Translations under genes and position numbers: made by a program
The notes under the pieces: generated by a model
Told to the model about the DNA's origin: nothing
Databases searched by the model: none
What the model saw: only the letters and a program-made list of their open reading frames with translations
In this document: one piece after another, positions 4,034 through 44,563 of the stretch
How the letters are laid out: every line of letters begins with the position of its first letter
Position numbering within the stretch: position 1 is the stretch's first letter
DNA from: a virus
IMG/VR virus record: IMGVR_UViG_3300042317_001400
Span: 1 to 50,234 of that record
DNA: 50,234 nt
Direction: 5' to 3' (one strand)

Positions 4034-4306
4034 ATGATTACTTTTGGACAGCACAAGTTTCCCAATCTTGCCACTGGCGAACAATGTGCGTGGGAGCCCA
4101 CCGTACGATTTGTCTGCCTCGACCGGCGAGTGATGATTGCGGCCCGCACACGCGTCGAGGGCAAATGGGCCGCATACTGCAAGAACGTTCCCGGCATGAA
4201 GCATGAGGTGGAGGTGGAGGTCGTGCTCGAGCACGGAACCAAGGTTTCAGAGGCTGTGGCGCGCGTGCTGTTCCCAGACTTCGAAGAAGTGCCGTACGCC
4301 AAGTAA
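4034..4306 (+). CDS. Hypothetical early protein
   Basis: A 90-residue protein beginning MITFGQHKFPNL. No family was recognised. It has a mixed basic and acidic character with a run of alternating Val and Glu around residues 58-66. The start is fixed by the leaderless promoter 6 nt upstream, although an ATG 18 nt earlier lies inside the promoter. It leads a short plus-strand operon with the next two genes, and the following ATG is 4 nt past its stop codon. Confidence 0.7.
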   Translation: MITFGQHKFPNLATGEQCAWEPTVRFVCLDRRVMIAARTRVEGKWAAYCKNVPGMKHEVEVEVVLEHGTKVSEAVARVLFPDFEEVPYAK

Positions 4307-6024: not shown

Positions 6025-7059
6025 TCAGTCTGCTTGGGCTGTAGCAGTACCCTCGCGGAACCTCGCGTGATCTTCTTCCAACTCAGCCAGCAGTTCTGGA
6101 CTGAGCACCCCGCGCGCATCCGTCGTCCGGGTAATAGCGTCATCATCTTCCACTGCGCGTAGCCGCGCAAACTCAGCTTGCATCTCCGGTGAGAGGTCTG
6201 CAATAAGCTCACCCACTGAAGCGTACTTCTTGCCGGTCGCCTGCGCCTTCGTACGTGCCACTGGCCGCTTAAGGCCCGGAATGGTGCTGATGGGCCGTTC
6301 AATGGGCTTGGCATAGTCCTTTCCCTCGAGGATGAAGATGCACTCGTTTGTTCCGTCCGACCCCTTGCCCTCCCGGTGGCGGTTGACGGTATCCCCAAAG
6401 TTGTGGACAGCCACGAAGTCCTCCGGGGCGATGAACTCGGTCACGAAGACCACGTTATTCTGTGACAGCTGCCGCGCGAAGTTCCAGAAGCCGACGCTGT
6501 CAAAGGCTGCATTGGTTTGCCCGGTGCGATTGGCATATGGCGGGTCGAGGTAAAAGATACCACCCTTCATGTCGGCATACGCACTATACTCGCAGTGAAA
6601 CACGTCGCCTGGTCCGACCCCAGCCTGCTTCAGCATGGCTACACGCTTGGCCAGCAGGTTGCGCAGGTTCTTGGCGAAGTCAGTTTTCCCCTTGGGGTCT
6701 CGAGCATAGGTAGCGAAGAATTTGCCAGCGAAGGCCATACCGAAACCAACAGCTGCTGTCAACGGATCAGCTGGATCTCGCGCACCCTGCTTCAGCGCCG
6801 TGTACATCTCCTCGGTGATCACCTCCGGTGGCAGCCACCCATCAAGACATGCGTGCCACATGTTCACCAGTGCCAGGTTGTTATCACTCAGAACCAACTC
6901 CTGTGGTGCGTTGAGCGTGGTGGCGATAGCTGCAACCTGACATGCACTACCCATGGCTCCGCAGAACGGCTCGATGAACGGCTTTCCCTGCCCAAGATAA
7001 GGTTTGATGTAGCCCGCAATGATTGGACCTTGCCGGTGCTTTCCGCCGAGGTACCTCAT
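6025..7059 (-). CDS. dam: Dam-type N6-adenine DNA methyltransferase 1 with an SSB-like C-terminal tail
   Basis: A 344-residue class D12 methylase. It begins MRYLGGKHRQG, has an AdoMet-binding EPFCGAMGS motif near residue 31 and a catalytic DPPY motif near residue 172. It should methylate adenine in a short DNA target. Beyond the methylase core are about 80 extra residues. Their end carries VLSPELLAELEEDHARF, nearly identical to VLSPELLADLEEDRAKF at the N-terminus of the phage SSB (39711-41009). The start at 7059 has AAAAGGAG upstream and overlaps by 4 nt the stop of a 9-codon leader peptide. A paralogue without the tail lies at 8487-9209. Confidence 0.85.
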   Translation of the reverse strand: MRYLGGKHRQGPIIAGYIKPYLGQGKPFIEPFCGAMGSACQVAAIATTLNAPQELVLSDNNLALVNMWHACLDGWLPPEVITEEMYTALKQGARDPADPLTAAVGFGMAFAGKFFATYARDPKGKTDFAKNLRNLLAKRVAMLKQAGVGPGDVFHCEYSAYADMKGGIFYLDPPYANRTGQTNAAFDSVGFWNFARQLSQNNVVFVTEFIAPEDFVAVHNFGDTVNRHREGKGSDGTNECIFILEGKDYAKPIERPISTIPGLKRPVARTKAQATGKKYASVGELIADLSPEMQAEFARLRAVEDDDAITRTTDARGVLSPELLAELEEDHARFREGTATAQAD

Positions 7060-14235: not shown

Positions 14236-15272
14236 AATCTGGATGGAACTCCAATGTCAAAGGTGGTGCGGGAACGTTGCATGGCGGAGCGCATCAGGTC
14301 GTCCGAGGCCTCATTGGGGTCGCCGTAGTCTAGCTTGCCAGCGTACGCATTGAGGCCACACTCTTCAAGTTCTGAGGCTACTAGTGCCGCTTTACCATAA
14401 GCGCCCTTATCTGTTGCATGTTTGGGTCCGTCAAACAACACGCAAATTTCAGAAGGTTCCAATGCAATGATCTTACCCAGTTGGCTTTGCAGCCAATGCT
14501 CGTCGGGCTTGGGGTGTCCAACCGAGGTGCCGAGCAGTCCGAGAGCGTAGTGCTGGTCTCCAAACTCCCTGCGAACGAAATCATGGGCAGAAATGCGGTC
14601 CAGCCCACCCTCTACAAGCGTCATGCTACCACCGATGACGGCATCATCCACGCCGTACAACCAGTAGGACTTGCCCATCTCCACCTCGTCCTTGTACGGG
14701 TTCTTCTTCGGTGGTAGGTCATCCCGGACGGCTCGCGCCTGCCAGTACACTAGCTCATCATCCTCGTAGACGGGGAAGATGCAGTACCCGGCCAATCGCC
14801 CCTCTACAGCGTACATGATTCGTGCCTGCAGGATTTGCTCCATGGTCAGGCGCTTGTCGAGCATGTTTTGAATGAACGGGGTGGCGGCGACGTCGTCTTC
14901 CTGGATGAACCGGCACCCGCGTGGCAGCTCAATGCGTTGTTGCTTATACTCTGGCGGCTTCTCCAACGCGTCTCGCTCCGCCCAGAACTCGCGCGGGTTG
15001 GCTCGGATGACCGAGGCGACATACGGGGTCTCGATGTTGCGCCTGGCCAGCCACTGGTGAATGTTTTTTAAACCGGCTCCGCAGCGCACACAGAATCCGA
15101 CATTCTTCTTGAAATTCAGGCCGAGGTGACCAGCAGCTGACTTTCCGCTGCCGTCCGCTCCCATTCCTCGGTGAACACAAAACGGGCAGGCAATTTGTAC
15201 CTCGCCGTTCGGTCCGATGAAGGCTACGCTGAACGTACTGCGTAGCTGCTGGAGGAGCAGGTCGCTAATCAT
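14232..15272 (-). CDS. DNA primase (DnaG/gp61 type)
   Basis: This 346-residue primase has an N-terminal zinc-binding domain, CPFC at 29-32 and CVRC at 61-64. A TOPRIM core follows, with the glutamate motif TLVEGGLDRISA near residue 205 and the Asp motif VLFDGPKHATD near 285. It should make RNA primers for lagging-strand synthesis with the gp41-like helicase. ATG 15272 overlaps the previous stop as ATGA; a longer open frame upstream lies inside that neighbour. Confidence 0.85.
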   Translation of the reverse strand: MISDLLLQQLRSTFSVAFIGPNGEVQIACPFCVHRGMGADGSGKSAAGHLGLNFKKNVGFCVRCGAGLKNIHQWLARRNIETPYVASVIRANPREFWAERDALEKPPEYKQQRIELPRGCRFIQEDDVAATPFIQNMLDKRLTMEQILQARIMYAVEGRLAGYCIFPVYEDDELVYWQARAVRDDLPPKKNPYKDEVEMGKSYWLYGVDDAVIGGSMTLVEGGLDRISAHDFVRREFGDQHYALGLLGTSVGHPKPDEHWLQSQLGKIIALEPSEICVLFDGPKHATDKGAYGKAALVASELEECGLNAYAGKLDYGDPNEASDDLMRSAMQRSRTTFDIGVPSRL

Positions 15273-15512: not shown

Positions 15513-15541
15513 ACGTTAGCACACCGCCGCAAGCTTGTCAA
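15513..15541 (-). promoter_or_regulatory. Sigma70-type promoter of the primase operon
   Basis: TTGACA (15541-15536), 17 bp, TGC then TAACGT (15518-15513). The sequence after the -10, ACCCACATG, is almost the same as after the promoter at 48539-48567 (TCCCACATC). Confidence 0.85.
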
Positions 15542-22635: not shown

Positions 22636-23550
22636 TTACTTCTTACCGCCAGCAAACTCCTGCCAGTGCCTGTGGGCATTCTCAATGAGTCGCGCGGCGG
22701 TGAGTTCGCCAAACCTCGCCAACTCATCTCTCAGCGTGCATCGGCATTGCACCGGATCATCTGCACCAACCGTAACCAACATATCATTATCGGCCATCCA
22801 TCCCGCCGGGTGGCGGTTTGGGTCGCCCCAAGCGCCAGTCCAGTAGTTGCTGCTTGGAGCCATATGGAACCAACTGCCGGTATCACGCATGGCGTCCATG
22901 ACCTCCAACACACTATCCCAGTACGCAGTAGTTGCCTGCCCGTGCTCCGGTGGTGCGAAGGCACGCACGCCGTGGCAGATATTGCGCACCCCGGCAGAGG
23001 CAAGCATGCGAATGCGCCAGAGTGTATCTTCTTGCGTCAGCGTCTCACCAACATGCGCAAAAACCACAACGCCTTTATTAACCGCCGTGCGCGCCGCGTC
23101 ACAGACGGATGGTGCGCAGAATTTGTGTTCGTTGCCTACGAAGTCTAACCCGTGTACTGCGGGGTGGTTGAGCAAACCAAGCCGCCACTCCGGTTGCTCG
23201 TATCGGAAGGCTAGCACAATCCGGGCGTTTGGCAGCCCGTCCGCAATCTGGCTAAGCACTTCGGACGGCATCATACCAGAATGGGCGTACTTATCTACCG
23301 ACACCCGCATCCAGCACCCATGCAAGTCCTCGGTTTGCTCGCGCACGGAGGCAATGGCGGCGGCTAGCTTGCTATCATCCCACACCACGCGATCTAGCAG
23401 GTTAAACCTGGAGATTAGGCTGAGCAGGGTTTTATGGGCATCGTCCGTTGGAACCAGTTGCGCCTCGGCTTCGGCCAGTGATACATTAGCCAACTCCGCC
23501 GCGCATGATGGGCTTATCGCGCCGCTAAAGTGGAGATGGCAGTCGATCAT
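22636..23550 (-). CDS. Adenosine-deaminase-family metal-dependent hydrolase
   Basis: This 304-residue protein carries the full adenosine deaminase motif set in order: DCHLHFSGA (metal His5, His7), LDFVGNE (135-141), FAHVGE with His166 and Glu169 (HAGE in ADA), ICHGVR with His193, SSNYWTGA and a later HP, then GADDP with Asp254-Asp255 (TDDP in ADA). The catalytic residues thus appear intact. Length is close to bacterial ADA (~330). The true substrate cannot be told from sequence: adenosine, deoxyadenosine, a modified base or a nucleotide signal are all possible. It sits among virion genes, 8 nt from the next gene and overlapping the 23547 gene by 4 bp. Confidence 0.8.
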   Translation of the reverse strand: MIDCHLHFSGAISPSCAAELANVSLAEAEAQLVPTDDAHKTLLSLISRFNLLDRVVWDDSKLAAAIASVREQTEDLHGCWMRVSVDKYAHSGMMPSEVLSQIADGLPNARIVLAFRYEQPEWRLGLLNHPAVHGLDFVGNEHKFCAPSVCDAARTAVNKGVVVFAHVGETLTQEDTLWRIRMLASAGVRNICHGVRAFAPPEHGQATTAYWDSVLEVMDAMRDTGSWFHMAPSSNYWTGAWGDPNRHPAGWMADNDMLVTVGADDPVQCRCTLRDELARFGELTAARLIENAHRHWQEFAGGKK

Positions 23551-31386: not shown

Positions 31387-31408
31387 TCTAGATGCTTGCG
31401 CATCTAGA
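31387..31408 (-). repeat. 9-bp hairpin at the end of the TnpB relic
   Basis: Perfect stem TCTAGATGC (31387-31395) with GCATCTAGA (31400-31408), 4-nt loop. It covers the TnpB stop codon. Such a hairpin fits a transposon-end structure of the IS200/IS605 group. Confidence 0.6.
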
Positions 31409-31717
31409 TTCCTGCTTCGATGATCTCCTACTGGAGATGCGGAAAAAACACTGGTAGGCTGCATCTAGCTGATTAACAGCGGACTGCAAGCTTTGGGAGT
31501 TAACCCCGGAGAGCCACGCGGTTTCTTCAGCACGTTTTAGGCCCGGAAGCATAGCACTCAGCTGGAAGCGTGTAATGTTCTCTTTGCGGTCCGTCCATGC
31601 CGAAGATTTATGGTGTAACCCGAAGTTGTAAACCCACCGCGTGCACCCAAAGTGCTGTGCAAGCAGTTCCTGTTGTTCCTTGCTCGGATAGAGACGGTAT
31701 TTGCGGGCTATGCGCAC
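31388..31717 (-). pseudogene. Truncated TnpB (IS200/IS605 OrfB) relic
   Basis: A 109-residue frame from GTG 31717. It begins with the TnpB N-terminal pattern RKYRLYPSKEQQELLAQHFG, then CTRWVYNFGL and ending SLQSAVNQLDAAYQCFFR, the N-terminal helical domain of OrfB/TnpB. The RuvC and zinc-finger parts of the ~370-400-residue family are missing; the frame ends in a hairpin. It is probably an internally deleted element, lying antisense between two virion-type genes. Its possible guide-RNA region cannot be judged here. Confidence 0.75.
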
Positions 31718-31737: not shown

Positions 31738-31992
31738 ATGAAGCCATCACAATTTCATGCACTGACCGAGAACCTGCCTGAACTGGAAGTGCGGCTGCGG
31801 CAACTTCGTCAGCGGGTGTTCGATCACGATGAGGGCACCCCGGAGTACGATGCGATTCAGTCGGAAATTGGTGAGGTCAAGGCTGAACTGTTGAAATCCC
31901 GTACCAGCGGCGGTGGGGCTCGTGGCCCGTTTTCAGGTTTGTCGCGCGGTGAACTGGCCGCATCTGGCACAAGTGAACCGGACTGGTACTAA
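31738..31992 (+). CDS. Small helical protein
   Basis: An 84-residue protein starting MKPSQFHALTENLPE with coiled-coil-like heptads (LEVRLRQLRQRVFDHD, YDAIQSEIGEVKAELL) and a Gly/Ser-rich end. No family was recognised. The leader ACTAAGTATTAGC is shared with the collar gene at 20281. It starts just beyond the TnpB relic. Confidence 0.55.
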   Translation: MKPSQFHALTENLPELEVRLRQLRQRVFDHDEGTPEYDAIQSEIGEVKAELLKSRTSGGGARGPFSGLSRGELAASGTSEPDWY

Positions 31993-33278: not shown

Positions 33279-35456
33279 TTATACACGGGACCCACCAGAG
33301 AGCAGCGGGCTAAACCCGTCTATGCCAAGGTTCAGAATGGCTGCTAACATTTGCTCGTTCAGATCACGTGTTGCTGCCAGTGAGTCCAGCTGCCGGGCGG
33401 CAACCGTGTTTCCCTGAGCAAGCAGACGCTCGTGCTGCTCAGGATCAATGCTTTGAGGTGTTCCGTCCCCGTAGCTGGTCTCATCAATGGCGGCTGAGCG
33501 TGGTGTAACAAGGTCGATGTTGTCCGGGTTGTAATCATCTGGGAGGTATCCCCCTGGGCGCTTGCTTACATCAAAGTCCGGAATGGCAGACTGATCTTTG
33601 CTTATGTCTCTGGCAGCCAGCCCAGCATCAAGTGCAATTGATGCTGCGGTACCAGGCCCCGGAATCATGCTTGCGGCCCCGGAAAGCACCTCGCCGCCAG
33701 CTCCGATAAAGTCTCCTTCCATCAAGCGCTGAAGCCCAAACCCAAGACCCGCGATAAGCCCAAGCACCGGAACTTTTTTGATAAGACTTTTGCCTATAGC
33801 TTTGCCTGCAACTTTGCCTGCAGCTTTGCCTGCAGCTTTGCCTACAGCTTTTTCCGTTGCCTTAGTTCCAACCTTGGTTAGTGTTGAGGCACCTTTGATG
33901 GCGAGAACGGCATCTGTTAGGGACTTGAGTGCCCCGCCAAGCGTAGTAGCCGCATCAGCAGCAATAGACACTCCGGCAACAAATGTACTGGTTGCTTCGA
34001 TGCTGGCCTTGTTCGCACCTGCAACAACTCCAGCAAGATCTGCCTGCATTGCGGCCTTCCTATCCTCTGTCGTCATGCTTGAGCTCGTTAACCCAGTTGC
34101 TGCCTTTTTCGTATCCTCAATGCTTCCAGCTTTCACCTCCTTCTGCGGTGTAGTGGAAAGCCTGTTTTCCTTTTCAAGGCGTGCTATAATTTCGCCAACG
34201 GTTCCTTCACCAATCGAGTTACCAGTGGCCTCATTAGCCACTTTAATTGCCTGTTCGGTTTTCTTCTTCAGGTTTTCAAAGTCCGCCGCCGCCTGGCTGC
34301 TTGAACCGCCTGCGGCGGCAGCTGCCTTAGCTTTATTGAATTCCTCGGGGGACGCCCCGCCAAGCAACTTAATACTTTTAGACTGTGCCTTCGCTATATC
34401 AATGCGGTCCTGAATGGCTCCCTCCCCGCCGTTTTCGATATTGGTTCGCTTCCGAGCAATTTCATCGGCGCTGAACATGTTACCAGACAACGATGATAAC
34501 CCGGCGTCGCGGATCATGCGGTCGGTCCCCTCCTTCTTTGGGGCAGCCGCCTTCATGTCGACACCAGCTGCCTTCATGGTGGCAGCCGCCCCAAGCATGC
34601 GCCGCATGTACTCATGTTTGGCCGCATCGTCCATGCCGAGTTCCATGTCGGCGTGCTTCGTCATCTCCTCAAACGCCTCTTTGCCGGTTAGACCGGCTTT
34701 TTGCGCCTCTACGCTAAGGTTGGCAATGGCAGCGGCACCGTTGCTGCTTGCGCCAGCCACGCGAAGTTGAGCATCGTAGAACTCCAGCACGGCTGCAGAC
34801 CCAACGCCGCTGAGTCGACCAACCGCACCAATGCCTACGGCTAGCCCCTCCATGTCCGTTGAGCGCTTGCCTGCCGCCATGCCAATTTGGTTTAAACCAA
34901 CCACCAGGCTAGCTGACTCCTCGACACCAAGCCCGAGCGCCTGGTCTAGCTTAATGCCCTGCCACATCATGTGCTGCATGCTCAGTCCGGCCATGTGGGT
35001 GCCACGGGCTGCCTTGACGGCTGCATCCGCATATCCAACACCACCAACCTTGGCAATGGTTGCAATTGCCGTACCCGCCTGCATGATCCCATTGAACACC
35101 TTCATGCCCCTCCCGGTAGCCATGGTGACACGCTCGGTTTCCTGTAGGTCCGCTTGTTTTTGATCCTCCAAATCCGATGACCTTTGCATTTGGCGAATGG
35201 TGGTTCGCTTAATTCGTTCGCTAACGGCATCAAGGTCCGCCTGCAGCGTGGCCGGGTTGAGCTTAAGCTTAGCAGCCTCGATGCGTAATTCTTTAAGTCG
35301 CTTTTCAATAGCAGCCATGTCTGCTACCTGCGTGGCAGAGTTTGCTTTCTGGCGTTTGGCTAGTCCGTCTAGTGCTTTCTGGCTACTACCAAGGCTGATC
35401 TTCAATGCATCTATCCCCTTTGTAAGGCCACCAATAATGTTGCTGAGAATTGCCAT
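33279..35456 (-). CDS. Tail tape-measure-like protein
   Basis: A 725-residue protein. The N-terminal ~120 residues are coiled-coil rich. The long Ala/Gly-rich helical middle ends in a KAAGKAAGKVAGKAIGK repeat near residue 555, then a hydrophobic stretch (VPVLGLIAGLGFGLQRLMEG) and GAASMIPGPGTAASIALD. This hydrophobic Gly-rich region is common in tape-measure and DNA-ejection proteins. The assignment rests on length, composition and context, not on a firm family match. It lies on the minus strand between two plus-strand virion clusters. Confidence 0.6.
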   Translation of the reverse strand: MAILSNIIGGLTKGIDALKISLGSSQKALDGLAKRQKANSATQVADMAAIEKRLKELRIEAAKLKLNPATLQADLDAVSERIKRTTIRQMQRSSDLEDQKQADLQETERVTMATGRGMKVFNGIMQAGTAIATIAKVGGVGYADAAVKAARGTHMAGLSMQHMMWQGIKLDQALGLGVEESASLVVGLNQIGMAAGKRSTDMEGLAVGIGAVGRLSGVGSAAVLEFYDAQLRVAGASSNGAAAIANLSVEAQKAGLTGKEAFEEMTKHADMELGMDDAAKHEYMRRMLGAAATMKAAGVDMKAAAPKKEGTDRMIRDAGLSSLSGNMFSADEIARKRTNIENGGEGAIQDRIDIAKAQSKSIKLLGGASPEEFNKAKAAAAAGGSSSQAAADFENLKKKTEQAIKVANEATGNSIGEGTVGEIIARLEKENRLSTTPQKEVKAGSIEDTKKAATGLTSSSMTTEDRKAAMQADLAGVVAGANKASIEATSTFVAGVSIAADAATTLGGALKSLTDAVLAIKGASTLTKVGTKATEKAVGKAAGKAAGKVAGKAIGKSLIKKVPVLGLIAGLGFGLQRLMEGDFIGAGGEVLSGAASMIPGPGTAASIALDAGLAARDISKDQSAIPDFDVSKRPGGYLPDDYNPDNIDLVTPRSAAIDETSYGDGTPQSIDPEQHERLLAQGNTVAARQLDSLAATRDLNEQMLAAILNLGIDGFSPLLSGGSRV
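33792..33851 (-). repeat. Five 12-bp tandem repeats in the tape-measure gene
   Basis: Units of the form GCCTGCAGCTTT on the plus strand encode the AGKA-type four-residue repeat. Outer units differ by one or two bases. Confidence 0.8.
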
Positions 35457-37420: not shown

Positions 37421-37966
37421 TTACAGCAAACTGGGGCGCGTCCACTGCGTATGGTGATCGCCCTGTGAGTACTCCACGAAGCACTGTTGGAACCCGGAGG
37501 CAGGCCACACGGCTGGTGGTGGCAACTGCTCCACGATGTGAATCCGGCTAAAGGAGTACCCTGCATCGAAGGTGTCGCGGAGGCGCTTCTTTGTGACAAG
37601 GTTGGTGAGCGGTGCTAGCAGCACCATGCGGGTTGGCCGGGTCACGTTCAGCATGTGCGGAATGAATCTCCCAAGCAATGAATACGGTGGGTTGGTAATG
37701 ACTAGGTCAACCTGTCCCGGATCGTGTTCGAACATGTCGCGTCCGAGCGTGATCTCGGCCCACTCGACGAGCATACGCTCCTTGCCGCTTGCAATGTACT
37801 GCACGCTCTGCCCCAACAGCGCCTCCGTAAACCCACTGTCGACTCCACAGCATGGTTCGTAAACGCGCATTCCGGGCTCGGTACCAGCCCACTCTATGCA
37901 CTCTTGGGCGAGCCACAACGGTGTCATCACGGCATCGTTGCCGGAGTTTGTGGAGAGGCCGGGCAT
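37421..37966 (-). CDS. N6-adenine DNA methyltransferase (NPPY type)
   Basis: A 181-residue protein with AdoMet motif I YEPCCGVDSG (36-45) and catalytic TNPPYSLLGR (91-100). It begins MPGLSTNSGNDAVMT. A 35-bp stretch covering this start is repeated with three mismatches at 38424-38458, where it opens a 20-codon fragment. The gene between the two copies (37966-38373) overlaps this start by 1 bp. Confidence 0.8.
   Translation of the reverse strand: MPGLSTNSGNDAVMTPLWLAQECIEWAGTEPGMRVYEPCCGVDSGFTEALLGQSVQYIASGKERMLVEWAEITLGRDMFEHDPGQVDLVITNPPYSLLGRFIPHMLNVTRPTRMVLLAPLTNLVTKKRLRDTFDAGYSFSRIHIVEQLPPPAVWPASGFQQCFVEYSQGDHHTQWTRPSLL
37923..37957 (-). repeat. 35-bp direct repeat, copy in the methylase start
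   Basis: It matches 38424-38458 at 32 of 35 positions. The copies are 501 bp apart and flank the gene at 37966-38373. Confidence 0.85.
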
Positions 37967-38373
37967 CAGATCAGCGCCCTGTGTATGAAGTTATCTCCCA
38001 CCTTCTTGTAGTGAGCATTTTCCTTTGCCCGAGGGTCTCCATGAGCAAAGTGACACAGACCCGGATCAGCGCCGCCACTGAATCCGCAGTTATATCCGTG
38101 CGTTGCTCCAACCCGATGTGCCTCAGCGGCAGCCTGTGCAATGGTGATAGCCACTTCTGCGCAGCCTTGCAGGTTGACCCACGGACAGATCGTGGTGGGT
38201 TTGTTCTTGCAAATGTTGAGCAGCTTGCGGATTGGGATGCTCGGCATTGTGCTGATGCCATGGGTATCAAGCGTGGTTGCGCAATCACCGTCACTGACGC
38301 CGGTCAGTCGCGCGACCACCACAAATGGCCCAGCGTTGCGATTAATGAACAGAATTGGTGACTTTGTTATCAT
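37966..38373 (-). CDS. Cys/His-rich early protein of unknown function, probably inserted
   Basis: A 135-residue protein starting MITKSPILFINRNAG. It carries many Cys and His: CKNKPTTICPWVNLQGC, then HGYNCGF and LCHFAHGDPRAKENAHYKK. These could hold one or two metal ions, but no known nuclease motif is clear. It has its own leaderless promoter and lies between two 35-bp direct repeats that duplicate the methylase start. That layout resembles the HNH insertion at uvsW, so it may be a mobile or recombination-acquired gene. Confidence 0.65.
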   Translation of the reverse strand: MITKSPILFINRNAGPFVVVARLTGVSDGDCATTLDTHGISTMPSIPIRKLLNICKNKPTTICPWVNLQGCAEVAITIAQAAAEAHRVGATHGYNCGFSGGADPGLCHFAHGDPRAKENAHYKKVGDNFIHRALI

Positions 38374-38379
38374 GCGCGA

Positions 38380-38408
38380 ACAATAGCGCAGCGATCGCCA
38401 CTTGTCAA
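38380..38408 (-). promoter_or_regulatory. Sigma70-type promoter, leaderless
   Basis: TTGACA (38408-38403), 17 bp, TATTGT (38385-38380), 6 nt to ATG 38373. The stop of the methylase fragment lies inside the -35 hexamer. Confidence 0.85.
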
Positions 38409-38467
38409 GCCCATGCCACCCACGTCATCACAGCACCATTGCCGGAGTTTGTGGAGAGCGCTCTCAT
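38405..38467 (-). pseudogene. Duplicated 5' fragment of the adenine methylase (20 codons)
   Basis: ATG 38467, overlapping the previous TAA, opens MRALSTNSGNGAVMTWVAWA and stops at TGA. Residues 4-10 and 12-15 match the methylase start exactly. It appears to be the original methylase start cut off by the inserted promoter and gene. Confidence 0.75.
38424..38458 (-). repeat. 35-bp direct repeat, upstream copy
   Basis: This is the partner of 37923-37957, with three mismatches. It lies within the 20-codon methylase fragment. Confidence 0.85.
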
Positions 38468-38559
38468 TATCTCCATGGGCCGATTCTGTTCATGGCGATA
38501 ATGAACACGACCAGCATCGTAACTGCACCGGCAACGAAGCCACTGATGAATGCAGTCAT
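38467..38559 (-). CDS. 30-residue single-span membrane peptide
   Basis: MTAFISGFVAGAVTMLVVFII is a clear transmembrane segment, followed by AMNRIGPWR with a positive end. ATG 38559 is 3 nt past the uvsX stop. Small one-span phage peptides can act on host membrane proteins or lysis; the role is not known. Confidence 0.5.
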   Translation of the reverse strand: MTAFISGFVAGAVTMLVVFIIAMNRIGPWR

Positions 38560-38562
38560 TTC

Positions 38563-39711
38563 TCAGTCCTCATCGTCATCTTCATCTACCGACACCACGC
38601 CATCGCGTTGCATGATGCGGTTCTGCCATTTTACAAGGGCCGCGTCGATAACTGGCATGACCACGTCGCTATTCCAAAATTCCGGCCACTGCGTCATATC
38701 AAATGTCTCACCGAGGCCATCCAGCGTATATCGACCGCCGGAGACCTTGAGCAGCTTGCTGCGCTTGAGCTGGTAGAAGACTGACCACATGTCGGAGAAC
38801 CCGGACCGTTCGCCTCCCGTGCCACGGAAGAGCAACGGCATCTCCACGACCCGCAGCGGCATGTCAAGCTTATTCTTGATGGTCTTGAACCCAACAAGCA
38901 GGCCGTCCGGTGCTGCCTTGTCCGCACCCTTGCCACTGTCGGCCTTGAACCGGAACTGCCCCTTGTTCATGGTGCGGATGCGATAGTCAGCAGCGAACTT
39001 CAACGCCCGACCTCCGGGACTTTCTGGCTCGGCTCCTGCCATTGCGTTTGGCTTGTCGCGGATCTGGTTCAGAACCACGAGATGTGCGTTTGACATGGTC
39101 AGCGGGTTGCGAATCTTCTTCATGGCGCGGGAGAGGATGCGGGCTATTCCCATCATCGTGTGCTCCTCCAGCGTTTTGTCGGCCTCCTCATCCGTTTCCA
39201 GGGCGGCAAGCGAGTCTATGCCAATCAGAATCGGCGTGGTCTCGCCAGACTCATGAATCTCGGTGACCATTTTTTCGATGGAGCGGAACAGCGACTCCGC
39301 CGTACGACTCCACATGATCGACATTCGACCACACGAGAATATCGGCACTGATGCCAGTTTCTTTTCATCGAACGCCTGCTCCTGATCAAACACAAGGCAG
39401 ATACCGTCCTCGTACTGTGTAAGGAAGCGCTCGCAGATCTTCTGCAGGAGCTCGGATTTGCCCGTGCGCTCTGGACCATAAATCTCCGTGATGCGCCCGC
39501 TTCCGAACCCTCCACGTTCAGCACCTCGCCCACCGAGGATCGTATCCAGCAGGCGCAGGCCCGTAGAATAGAAGTGCTTGGGTGTATAGAATCGGTCCAC
39601 GGCCTTTCCCTCGCCGAGAATGTGGCTATACTGCGTGTCATCATCATGCTTGTCCAATATGCGACGAAGCGTGTCCTGCGGCGAAGCTGCCGTGGCTTTA
39701 GTCTTGGCCAT
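38563..39711 (-). CDS. uvsX: UvsX-like RecA-family recombinase
   Basis: A 382-residue protein. Walker A is GPERTGKS (79-86), a Walker B-type strand ILIGIDSLAAL lies near 162, and LVVLNQIRDKPNA near 212 corresponds to the DNA-binding loop 1 region. The C-terminus is acidic (DEDDDED), as in UvsX/RecA, where it modulates DNA access. It catalyses strand exchange with SSB and a UvsY-type mediator, both found upstream in the same run. Its start overlaps the SSB stop by 1 bp. Confidence 0.9.
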   Translation of the reverse strand: MAKTKATAASPQDTLRRILDKHDDDTQYSHILGEGKAVDRFYTPKHFYSTGLRLLDTILGGRGAERGGFGSGRITEIYGPERTGKSELLQKICERFLTQYEDGICLVFDQEQAFDEKKLASVPIFSCGRMSIMWSRTAESLFRSIEKMVTEIHESGETTPILIGIDSLAALETDEEADKTLEEHTMMGIARILSRAMKKIRNPLTMSNAHLVVLNQIRDKPNAMAGAEPESPGGRALKFAADYRIRTMNKGQFRFKADSGKGADKAAPDGLLVGFKTIKNKLDMPLRVVEMPLLFRGTGGERSGFSDMWSVFYQLKRSKLLKVSGGRYTLDGLGETFDMTQWPEFWNSDVVMPVIDAALVKWQNRIMQRDGVVSVDEDDDED

Positions 39712-41009
39712 TACTCAGCGGGTTCGGGTTCCAGTTCCTGAGATGCTTCACCACCACCTTCTGCCGGGGTGGCGTCTTCCTGCGCCTGCAATGCCTTCAG
39801 GCGTTGCATCAGTGCCGGGGCCGCTGCTTTGGTAGTGCCCACGGGGCGCGTAGCGGGTGCTGCGGCTGGCGTTGCGGCTGGACGGGTGGTCGGAGGTCCA
39901 GCGGGACGGGCTGCGGCAGGACGGGCAACCGCTGCGGGTCCAGCAGGACGGGGTCGCGCGGCTGGTGATTGGGCCGCTGGTTCGACATTGTCCATTGGCA
40001 CGTCGTCCTCGACACCATCAGGCACGTCGTCGCCACCCGACTCAGGGGCTTGGGCGGGAACAGGGGCGGGACGGGCAGCGGGACGCGGGGCGGCAGCTGC
40101 TGCCGTGGCGGCGGGACGTGGGGCAGGGCGGGCCGCTCCTGCGGCTGGACGGGCACCACCTGTCGGAGGTCCAGCGGGGCGGGTACCAGCGACTGGCTTC
40201 TGCTGTGACTTATGTGCCTCATCGTTCCGCATATCGGCGTCTTCGGCACCGGCTTGAACCGCGTCCACCATGGCGTTGTAGCAGTTCACCATCTCATCAT
40301 AATCCGGGAGGCGGATGTTGTCGAGCTTGATGCGCTTTTCCATTAGATCGTTGATGGTGGACTCGTCGATCTGCTCGCCATCCGTGTACCAGAGTGCCAC
40401 CGGCTGCAGCAGGGCGATGGTGCTGTACGATGCTCGACCGCCCTTTTTGGACTTGGTGATAGAGAAGTCAATACCGGTGTACGGGTCAAGGATGTCCGGA
40501 CCGTTGTTAATGAAGTTATTCTCGATCACGCTGAAGACCGTGCTCGGTGCCGAATATGGTCGGACGATGGGGCTGGCATCATCACGGGCCATGATGTTCA
40601 TTGAATAGCTGATGCGGGGCAGGGAGTTGCTGATGATGCGACCGATGCGCTTGAGGGCCATCTGGTCCACGCCACCACTGCTGCGAACGTTGCTGCGCAG
40701 CTCCGTCTCGTATTCGCGCCACCCGGCGAGACCGTCACAGAACGGGCACGGCGCACCTGTCGTAATCTTGGCCGGACATTCCATGGGCAGCCGCCGCCCC
40801 TCCACCACCACCCAATGCTGGGCGTGAGCCACGTAAAATTTCTGCTTGCTCTTTCCGAACATGCCGGGCAGGATGCGGATGGCATGTGGGCGGTTATCGT
40901 CCGGGATCTTGTAGTTATCACCAGCAGATGTGCTGAATTTGGCGCGATCTTCTTCGAGATCGGCGAGGAGTTCTGGGCTGAGGACGGGGCGTTGGGTTGG
41001 AGGAGGCAT
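39711..41009 (-). CDS. gp32-like single-stranded DNA-binding protein with a long Ala/Pro linker
   Basis: A 432-residue protein. The zinc ligands His65, Cys78, Cys88 and Cys91 have exactly the spacing of T4 gp32 (64, 77, 87, 90), and the core runs to about residue 270. It is followed by a ~140-residue Ala/Pro/Arg/Gly-rich linker and an acidic C-terminal tip (QELEPEPAE), as expected for protein recruitment. The N-terminal VLSPELLADLEEDRAKF recurs at the C-terminus of dam1. The leader contains ACAACAACAC and no Shine-Dalgarno. Confidence 0.85.
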   Translation of the reverse strand: MPPPTQRPVLSPELLADLEEDRAKFSTSAGDNYKIPDDNRPHAIRILPGMFGKSKQKFYVAHAQHWVVVEGRRLPMECPAKITTGAPCPFCDGLAGWREYETELRSNVRSSGGVDQMALKRIGRIISNSLPRISYSMNIMARDDASPIVRPYSAPSTVFSVIENNFINNGPDILDPYTGIDFSITKSKKGGRASYSTIALLQPVALWYTDGEQIDESTINDLMEKRIKLDNIRLPDYDEMVNCYNAMVDAVQAGAEDADMRNDEAHKSQQKPVAGTRPAGPPTGGARPAAGAARPAPRPAATAAAAAPRPAARPAPVPAQAPESGGDDVPDGVEDDVPMDNVEPAAQSPAARPRPAGPAAVARPAAARPAGPPTTRPAATPAAAPATRPVGTTKAAAPALMQRLKALQAQEDATPAEGGGEASQELEPEPAE

Positions 41010-42561: not shown

Positions 42562-43044
42562 CTAATCTTCTGAAGACCCAACGGGCCGGTATACTCGTAC
42601 TTGCTCGGCGCGTGCGTTCGCGCCAATTCCGACCAGCATGTCCTTCCGGGCGATGAAGGACTTCAGTGCAGCGTTCAGAATGGCTGCTCGTTCATCCGCC
42701 GCCGCTGCCGCATCCTCCAGTTCAACAACATCTGGATCGAGACATATAGCATTGGCAATCATGTCGTTAGTAGGCTTCGACCCAGCAGCTGCAAGTGATT
42801 GCTTCTTTTCGAAGAATTTCTTGGCGCGCAGCCGCTCCAACACGCGGTTTGCCGTGGCCGCGTCTGCCTGCGCCCGTGCCTCGGCATACGAAATCGTTGC
42901 CTGCCATGCCGCATGACTCTCGTACTCCGCCTCAAGGTTCATCGGGTCGATGCCGATGATGAGGGCGAACGGAATCGGCTGGCCCTCTGCCGTTTGCAGC
43001 TGCGGTAGGTCCTCCGGACGCGGAAGGAAATGCTTGTTAATCAC
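42562..43044 (-). CDS. UvsY-like recombination mediator candidate
   Basis: A 160-residue, highly helical protein. The middle (LEAEYESHAAWQATISYAEARAQ) and later ATANRVLERLRAKKF and ERAAILNAALKSFIARKDML have the charge pattern and length of T4 UvsY, which loads UvsX onto SSB-coated DNA. Similarity is in pattern only. Its place in a run with uvsX and ssb supports the idea. It starts at GTG 43044 with a GCGTTCCT element 6 nt upstream, flanked by a 5-bp inverted repeat. Confidence 0.45.
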   Translation of the reverse strand: MINKHFLPRPEDLPQLQTAEGQPIPFALIIGIDPMNLEAEYESHAAWQATISYAEARAQADAATANRVLERLRAKKFFEKKQSLAAAGSKPTNDMIANAICLDPDVVELEDAAAAADERAAILNAALKSFIARKDMLVGIGANARAEQVRVYRPVGSSED

Positions 43045-43060: not shown

Positions 43061-44563
43061 TTACATGATCACGCTGTCTGCGAACCACTTTGGGGCAAGG
43101 TAGCCCCACTTGTTCCAAAACTTACCAAATCCGCTGTCGATGAGATAACAGTCCGCGTAATCATCAACGTTGCGAATGGATCGGCCCGTACCCTGAATCA
43201 GTGTCTGCATTGTCATCCACCCGTACCATTCCGGATCTTCTTTCATGCGCGCAGCAACCCAACTGTCGCCAAGGTACGCGTATGGTACCTTGGCGAAGAT
43301 GGTGAATCGGCTAAGGTCGTCGAACAAGTCCAGCCCCTCCGTAATAGATGGACTCATTAGCACCGTTGGTTCCGAACTCCGGAGATGGTGATCGATGAGG
43401 TTTTGCCGATCCGTGTCGCGAGCATGAACGAGAACTCGCCCGGTGTGGTGGCGCAGCATGGTGGAAAGCTGCTCCGTGAGCTTAAACGAGTGTGAGTGGA
43501 TGATGCCCTTGTGCCCCTTGTACGCATCCAGCAGCTTCACGATCCTGTTCGCGATTGCAGGCAGCGAGGCCGTTGACGCACTTCTGGACATGTCTCCGGC
43601 TGGTGCGAACCTCACCGTTCGGTTTGCTGTATCAAATGGTGACGGTAAGTCAATGCGCTCGGCATCGGCAATGCCGACCCACCTCTCCAGCAGCCGTGGC
43701 TCTGGAAGCGTTGCACTGGCGAGCAGGATGCGGCGTCCCAGCGGTTCCATATATGTGCTGTAAAGCCGTTGTGCGGTTAACGGTCGGAGCGTGAAGGTCA
43801 TGAGGTCGCCATCCTCTGAGAATACCCACGTCTCCTGCTCGTGCGACTCGAGGAAGTACTCAATGGACTGCGACAACATCCTTAGCTTGACCAGGTTGTG
43901 CGCCATGTCCGGGTCCACGGCGTCTCCGCCAACGCTGCACTCCTGTGACATTTGTACAATGCGCACGCTGACCACGGTGAGCATACGCTCCATGAATGGT
44001 ACGGAGGTAGTCACATCCGTAGGCCACGTCTCGCGAAATTCCAGCAGCTTGATGATATCGAGGGTGACCTTGACGGCAGCAGCACCAATTAGGTTGGCCT
44101 CAAGCGCGTGTCCTTCATCGCAACACAACCATTCCCCGCTTGGCAGTTCAAACTCAGCCTGTCGCATGGCCGCAAATAACCACGCGTAGTTGGTGACGGC
44201 GGCTCGCGCGCCGAAGAATGTGCCGCGCGCAGATCGATACGGACATGCTTCTGCGTTGCAGCCAGCCGCAGCTCCGGACTGACAGTCCGCTCCGCTGAAG
44301 TGGTCGCATGGGTAGTTCTGCCGCCCCTTGAGAAGAGGCATGTCCGGCCAGTCTCGACGATATTGGTCCTGCAGCTGCTTGAGCGGCGTAAGAATAATGC
44401 CTCCGTCTGCTTCGGCGACGGTGACAATGATGGGTGACTTGCCAACGCCAGTTGGGGCATTAACCAGCAACGTACGCGCTTCAGACCGTTCAGCCCACTC
44501 AAGTACCTCGGCCTGCTGTGGGCGCGGAGGTGACTGCATTACCCAATGATCAAGGTAACTCAT
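43061..44563 (-). CDS. DinG/XPD-like SF2 DNA helicase
   Basis: A 500-residue protein. The P-loop is APTGVGKS (36-43), four cysteines at 86, 94, 102 and 107 fit an iron-sulfur cluster, DEGH box is at 149-152 and QGTGRSIR motif VI lies near 467. These are marks of the XPD/DinG family of 5'-3' helicases, which unwind DNA or R-loops. The start at 44563 overlaps the stop of a 42-residue gene (ATGA); longer open sequence upstream belongs there. Confidence 0.8.
   Translation of the reverse strand: MSYLDHWVMQSPPRPQQAEVLEWAERSEARTLLVNAPTGVGKSPIIVTVAEADGGIILTPLKQLQDQYRRDWPDMPLLKGRQNYPCDHFSGADCQSGAAAGCNAEACPYRSARGTFFGARAAVTNYAWLFAAMRQAEFELPSGEWLCCDEGHALEANLIGAAAVKVTLDIIKLLEFRETWPTDVTTSVPFMERMLTVVSVRIVQMSQECSVGGDAVDPDMAHNLVKLRMLSQSIEYFLESHEQETWVFSEDGDLMTFTLRPLTAQRLYSTYMEPLGRRILLASATLPEPRLLERWVGIADAERIDLPSPFDTANRTVRFAPAGDMSRSASTASLPAIANRIVKLLDAYKGHKGIIHSHSFKLTEQLSTMLRHHTGRVLVHARDTDRQNLIDHHLRSSEPTVLMSPSITEGLDLFDDLSRFTIFAKVPYAYLGDSWVAARMKEDPEWYGWMTMQTLIQGTGRSIRNVDDYADCYLIDSGFGKFWNKWGYLAPKWFADSVIM

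Follow-up and report, generated by a model that had tools for sequence, protein, structure and literature searches.

A Cys/His-rich orphan gene with its own promoter between two copies of a methylase start in an uncultured phage

Overview

The DNA analysed here is the IMG/VR record of an uncultured phage (the window, taken at its whole length of 50,234 bases), in which a one-gene unit has probably entered the start of a small DNA methyltransferase gene and left about 35 bp of its target in duplicate. The gene between the duplicates, P0001, has a promoter of its own; the methylase start stands upstream of it as a short relict and downstream of it as the beginning of an intact gene. Direct evidence consists of the repeat, the class of the promoter, the division of conserved start residues between the two copies, and the sharing of this state by two phages. 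The original prediction for this locus had proposed a recent insertion of a one-gene cassette and had suggested that its product may be a mobile or homing protein of a new type. A single gene that has its own promoter and is flanked by a severed and a rebuilt start of the methylase is still the preferred picture, but neither the recency nor the mobile or homing role is upheld by the results below.

The locus and its repeat

The gene order on the minus strand is SSB, UvsX, a 30-codon orf, the relict start, P0001 and the methylase (Table 1). The 30-codon orf is doubtful as a gene because a 5-nt deletion breaks its frame in the related phage described below. The elements first predicted at the locus were all found again: the direct repeat (91% identity), the 135-codon Cys/His-rich gene between its copies, the upstream copy that opens only 20 codons before a stop, and the complete promoter that follows.

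Table 1. Features of the P0001 locus (window coordinates)
Feature	Position	Strand	Remarks
UvsX/RecA-like recombinase, upstream neighbour	38563..39711	-	PHROG 97, E 5.1e-53
30-codon orf between UvsX and relict	38467..38559	-	doubtful; frame not kept in relative
Relict orf, 20 codons, MRALSTNSGNGAVMTWVAWA then stop	38405..38467	-	stop in -35 box; 35-bp core unchanged in relative
Upstream copy of 35-bp repeat, codons 4-15 of the putative severed original methylase start	38424..38458	-	32/35 identical; keeps RAL, conserved D and P lost
Promoter TTGACA-17-TATTGT, then 6 nt to ATG	38374..38408	-	predicted leaderless; one of a phage-wide set
P0001, 135-aa Cys/His-rich orphan protein, putatively inserted gene	37966..38373	-	orthologue in one near relative, with in-frame 12-nt expansions
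Downstream copy of 35-bp repeat, start region of intact methylase	37923..37957	-	keeps D-x-V-M-T-P
Intact small DNA methyltransferase, 181 aa	37421..37966	-	PHROG 799, E 3.8e-21; TGATG overlap with P0001

The repeat is well above chance: no other near-by direct repeat of the window reaches its score of 26 (+1/-2 scoring), the maximum in ten first-order random sequences is 17, and the self-BLAST E value is 4e-6. It lies inside coding sequence, corresponding to codons 4-15 of the methylase, and an ATG precedes it in the same register in both copies, although codons 2-3 differ (AGA GCG versus CCC GGC). No extension of the repeat on either side was detectable in local alignments of the flanks against shuffles, the score of the 60-nt left flank being reached by 36% of shuffles and that of the right flank by 76%. 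A suspected match of the P0001 tail CACAGGGCGCT to ATGAGAGCGCT of the relict was dropped, as the flank alignments are no better than shuffles. The insert is not bounded by terminal inverted repeats of the kind that mark an insertion sequence or transposon; neither of the two inverted pairs that were detected frames it.

The two methylase starts

Homologues of the methylase are found in cyanophages and others. The catalytic motif of NPP[YFW] type is present, with TNPP invariant in an alignment of eight sequences. The PHROG 799 DNA methyltransferases of P-RSM4, J2-1 and P-HM1 are of the same family as the downstream gene of the window, but their start is uninterrupted, whereas in the window P0001 stands between two copies of it. 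A methylase profile scan of IMG/VR gave at least 79 further loci, all distant homologues with identity of no more than 36%. Start motifs were counted over all 79 listed loci, while companion comparisons of starts took 77, without L062 and L093, whose matches begin at query residue 68.

Among the matches listed, D-x-[VIL]-x-TP is present at the start in 74 of the 79 loci (the D-x-V-x-TP pattern was picked after the alignment had been seen), and RA[FL] occurs within 14 residues before the D in 39 of those 74. When only distinct stretches among these matches are considered, RA[FL] is present in 21 of 53, while 1000 shuffles gave 0.26 on average and 3 at most; this signal comes mostly from cyanophage-like relatives. 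RA[LF]-x6-D in the exact register of the window and in one unbroken start, the uninserted state available for comparison, occurs in 5 of the 79 distant homologues listed (L028, L029, L033, L035 and L054, of which the first two are the same in that stretch).

These features are divided between the two copies in the window. Upstream, RAL is intact, whereas G replaces D and W replaces P; downstream, D and P are intact, whereas RA is replaced by PG. Because the copies hold complementary halves of RA[LF]...D-x-V-x-TP, the most plausible reading makes the upstream copy the original 5′ end, severed from its gene, and the downstream copy the working start, rebuilt after the event. The distant homologues thereby indicate which copy is the original end, in agreement with the earlier proposal that the methylase start was restored downstream. 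No P0001-like stretch at E ≤ 1 came to light when 85 loci with methylase homologues were scanned (the 79 listed from IMG/VR and 6 from phage records), which is weak evidence as several of the loci are short; a single match among them at E 2.0 looks like chance.

The promoter of P0001

The promoter of P0001 consists of TTGACA at 38408-38403, to which the TGA stop of the relict belongs, a 17-nt spacer, TATTGT at 38385-38380, and 6 nt before the ATG at 38373. This ATG is located where transcription should begin; therefore, given the usual start point, the P0001 mRNA is expected to be leaderless, without a Shine-Dalgarno site. The same class of promoter recurs across the genome: TTGACA-N17-TANNNT has 10 sites in the window and 11 in the related phage, and an ATG follows exactly 6 nt past the -10 hexamer at 7 of the former and 8 of the latter. 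A relaxed module (at most one mismatch in TTGACA, ATG at 6 nt, 11 open codons) was counted 6 times in the window and 9 times in the relative, but did not occur in any of 30 random sequences.

In the window, TTGACA-N17-TANNNT-N6-ATG leads to starts at 4034, 7163, 50120, 38373, 33242 and 27920, with further promoters at 15541, 48567 and 135. The genes downstream of module promoters include an RNA ligase and a helicase, and some of the promoters also share their spacers (43 bp at 88-91% identity between sites). Such a rigid phage-wide module predicts leaderless mRNAs, and its recurrence in the window and the relative identifies the P0001 promoter as the phage's own kind.

Origin of the arrangement

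The preferred explanation is that a one-gene transcription unit, comprising a leaderless promoter of sigma-70 type and P0001, would have entered the methylase gene after about codon 15, with duplication of about 35 bp of the target. The old start would have been left upstream as the 20-codon relict, and the methylase would now start at the ATG that overlaps the stop of P0001. From this overlap it follows that P0001 and the methylase are probably co-transcribed and translationally coupled, and thus probably co-expressed; no terminator-like site was found on the minus strand at the 3′ end of P0001.

The probable agent of the insertion is recombination in the course of phage replication, not P0001 itself, and two routes may be envisaged. 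The first is local duplication of the target, which explains the sharp ends of the repeat. The second is import of a donor segment carrying P0001 and the donor's methylase start, whose right end would have been joined by crossing over within the methylase and whose left end by illegitimate joining; this route explains why the ATG is in register in both copies.

Alternatively, the shared register of the ATG may mean that an entire second gene start was inherited. Tandem duplication and decay would have doubled the methylase, with P0001 between or beside the copies, and then deleted the upstream copy past its first 20 codons. The position of the repeat within the gene suits such a history, as do the other paralogous methylases of the genome (6025-7059 and 8487-9278), but the similarity ends sharply after codon 15 with no degraded extension, and self-comparison and a repeat scan found no other remnant of a methylase upstream. 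Tandem duplication is accordingly considered unlikely, and insertion with target duplication is retained as the working explanation.

The same arrangement in a related phage

The phage IMGVR_UViG_3300021519_000015 (50,560 bases) shares long blocks of 91-98% identity with the window, separated by unrelated stretches, and is about 97% identical around the P0001 locus. Its version of P0001 aligns at 94-96% identity and has additional 12-nt units, in frame, after the start, and the promoter is kept, with one base more before the ATG. Both copies of the repeat are present; the three differences that separate them in the window recur, the relative's downstream copy has one more, and the upstream 35 bp are identical in the two phages. 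As both phages have the same arrangement, the insertion would have preceded their split, which speaks against calling it recent. Expansions of 12-nt units in the relative are located both upstream of P0001 and inside it (L003 3778-3829 and 3962-4010).

The original prediction had proposed a comparison with phages that lack P0001, and had counted it against insertion if relatives all carried the gene and the duplicated start. Formally that is the outcome, but from a single phage: IMG/VR scans with the methylase, P0001, UvsX and degenerate methylase and P0001 patterns yielded one close relative, which has P0001, and no empty site.

The identity of the upstream 35 bp in the two phages, together with its position abutting the promoter, might mean that the two copies are kept as functional elements of DNA or RNA (an operator, a translational decoy or a leader peptide) and are not the relict of an insertion. 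However, at about 3% divergence 35 unchanged bp are often expected by chance, the RNA structure of the two copies does not exceed that of shuffles (z 0.30 and -0.19), no Rfam family was found in the window, and the repeat encodes the conserved start motif of the methylase. A functional element is therefore judged improbable as the explanation of the repeat.

The P0001 gene and its product

The predicted product of P0001 contains 6 Cys and 7 His. Pfam, PHROGs, NCBIfam and PADLOC contain no family that matches it at E ≤ 1, and PDB sequences match it only at chance level. Neither a search by DNA nor one by P0001 protein gave a match in phage records; scans with P0001 and with a pattern revealed no relative in GTDB genomes, and those of IMG/VR with P0001 and with a degenerate P0001 pattern revealed only the one in IMGVR_UViG_3300021519_000015. 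The structure prediction that had been suggested as a check was carried out; built with two sequences, the model was uninformative (mean pLDDT 36.7) and was not used for a fold search.

Between the window and the relative there are 9 substitutions in P0001, distributed 4/1/4 over codon positions 1/2/3 (4 synonymous, 5 not), compared with 0/3/7 in the methylase. The substitutions do not prove that P0001 is coding, but the in-frame repeat expansions and the kept promoter and start favour it. The GC3 of P0001 is 0.58, close to that of the two HNH genes (0.56 and 0.58) and the TnpB fragment (0.59), while most, though not all, of the other genes measured alongside have values of 0.64-0.85. GC3 is nevertheless weak evidence for insertion, because a clearly structural gene (33279-35456) has a value of 0.54 and because values of 0.58 or less occur in 18% of 51 orfs of at least 100 aa, some of which are non-genes. 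As a working guess held with low confidence, P0001 may be an accessory early protein co-expressed with the methylase.

The high content of Cys and His, and the presence of mobile genes (HNH genes and a TnpB fragment) in the genome, would suit a P0001 that acts in homing or mobilisation and brought its own gene to this site. A homing endonuclease would be expected to match a recognisable nuclease family (HNH, GIY-YIG, LAGLIDADG or other), whereas the searches above matched P0001 to no nuclease, recombinase or transposase family, and the structure model offers no help. By the scans used, P0001 was found in one copy in each of two phages and nowhere else, which is odd for a mobile gene; self-insertion by P0001 is thus very improbable. 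As regards the putative parallel with an HNH insertion at uvsW, a search of the relative found no uvsW-like match, and self-comparison of the window revealed no duplicated start at the HNH gene beside uvsW. The HNH-type gene that adjoins uvsW (1778-2497, PHROG 2255) has an internal repeat of 62% identity over 124 nt.

Both genomes are metagenomic contigs, but an assembly artefact, which the original prediction had named as a hazard for the repeat, is scarcely credible because a second contig about 3% different shows the same gene and structure and both diverged copies with the same differences.

Comparison with known systems

As defined in the account of phage morons consulted (PMC3029335), a moron is a single gene with its own promoter between genes that are elsewhere adjacent, and P0001 shares these traits. 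In contrast, there is no terminator between P0001 and the methylase, and the target, which is duplicated, lies within a gene start. A moron would also be expected to be present in one genome and absent from a close relative; the one close relative found has P0001. The term therefore fits the P0001 unit in part. The footprint is unusually clear, and the event itself is probably a phage gene insertion of an ordinary type; it is classed here as a moron-type insertion in a variant form, with a long duplication of the target.

Insertion with long target duplication has been described in Helicobacter pylori chromosomes, often involving restriction-modification genes (Nobusato et al. 2000, as cited in PMC1643837). 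In that description, as in the window, the insert is flanked by a long direct repeat of the target, and the P0001 unit likewise adjoins a methylase gene. It differs from the H. pylori case as summarised there in belonging to a phage, in having a 35-bp repeat, in having no recognised restriction gene and in that no empty allele was found.

Start-associated sequences of cluster K mycobacteriophages resemble the module of the window in that a short sequence recurs at numerous gene starts within one phage. They are located upstream of starts, and the portion of PMC3203893 on which this comparison draws leaves their role open, whereas in this phage the dispersed element is a promoter from which leaderless mRNAs are predicted, and the 35-bp repeat is part of a coding sequence. 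A narrow search of the open-access literature yielded no description of a phage gene inserted in a duplicated gene start. The locus is an unusually readable footprint of how a phage may gain a single gene inside an operon while the interrupted gene is not lost.

A second candidate footprint and other accessory genes

Gene X of the relative (139 codons, 35230-34811 on the minus strand; L007 15811-16230) is situated between two 30-bp repeats of 90% identity, each consisting of the stop of the preceding gene, a short spacer, an ATG and the codons after it. From the downstream copy only 33 codons are open, beginning MKLAQFHKLTHN, and the geometry differs from that of P0001 in that the upstream copy serves the long gene. 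X has no significant family match. In its place the window has a TnpB fragment (31388-31717; NCBIfam NF038281, E 2.7e-24) with a hairpin-like end, not seen at the corresponding place in the relative, followed by an 84-codon gene (31738-31992) with a similar start, MKPSQFHALTEN.

It is conceivable, if rather doubtful, that this lineage gains genes as small self-contained units by recombination that duplicates 30-35 bp of a neighbour's start, so that P0001 and X would be two footprints of one unrecognised route, some units bringing along a leaderless promoter of their own that functions at any landing site. A common process cannot be established from two cases, but the idea is testable, and if the X site and the leaderless module do share one process, it would be a route by which added genes are expressed at once anywhere.

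Two other pairs of repeats in the relative were rejected as further cases: those at 14676 and 14973 are an internal protein repeat, and those at 43040 and 43914, which border a gene absent from the window, are both present in the window too (15 bp shared) and so are no mark of that gene. A 182-codon gene of the relative (43211-43759; L008 6211-6756), without a family match, is absent from the window, which at that place has an ATGA junction in front of gene 22636-23550. In the window, the 3′ end of the Dam-like methylase gene 6025-7059 (positions 6055-6108) resembles the first codons of SSB (40932-40985) at 41 of 54 nt, the corresponding peptides being VLSPELLAELEEDHARF and VLSPELLADLEEDRAKF; the likeness is due either to another gene-start fragment or to a shared peptide motif.
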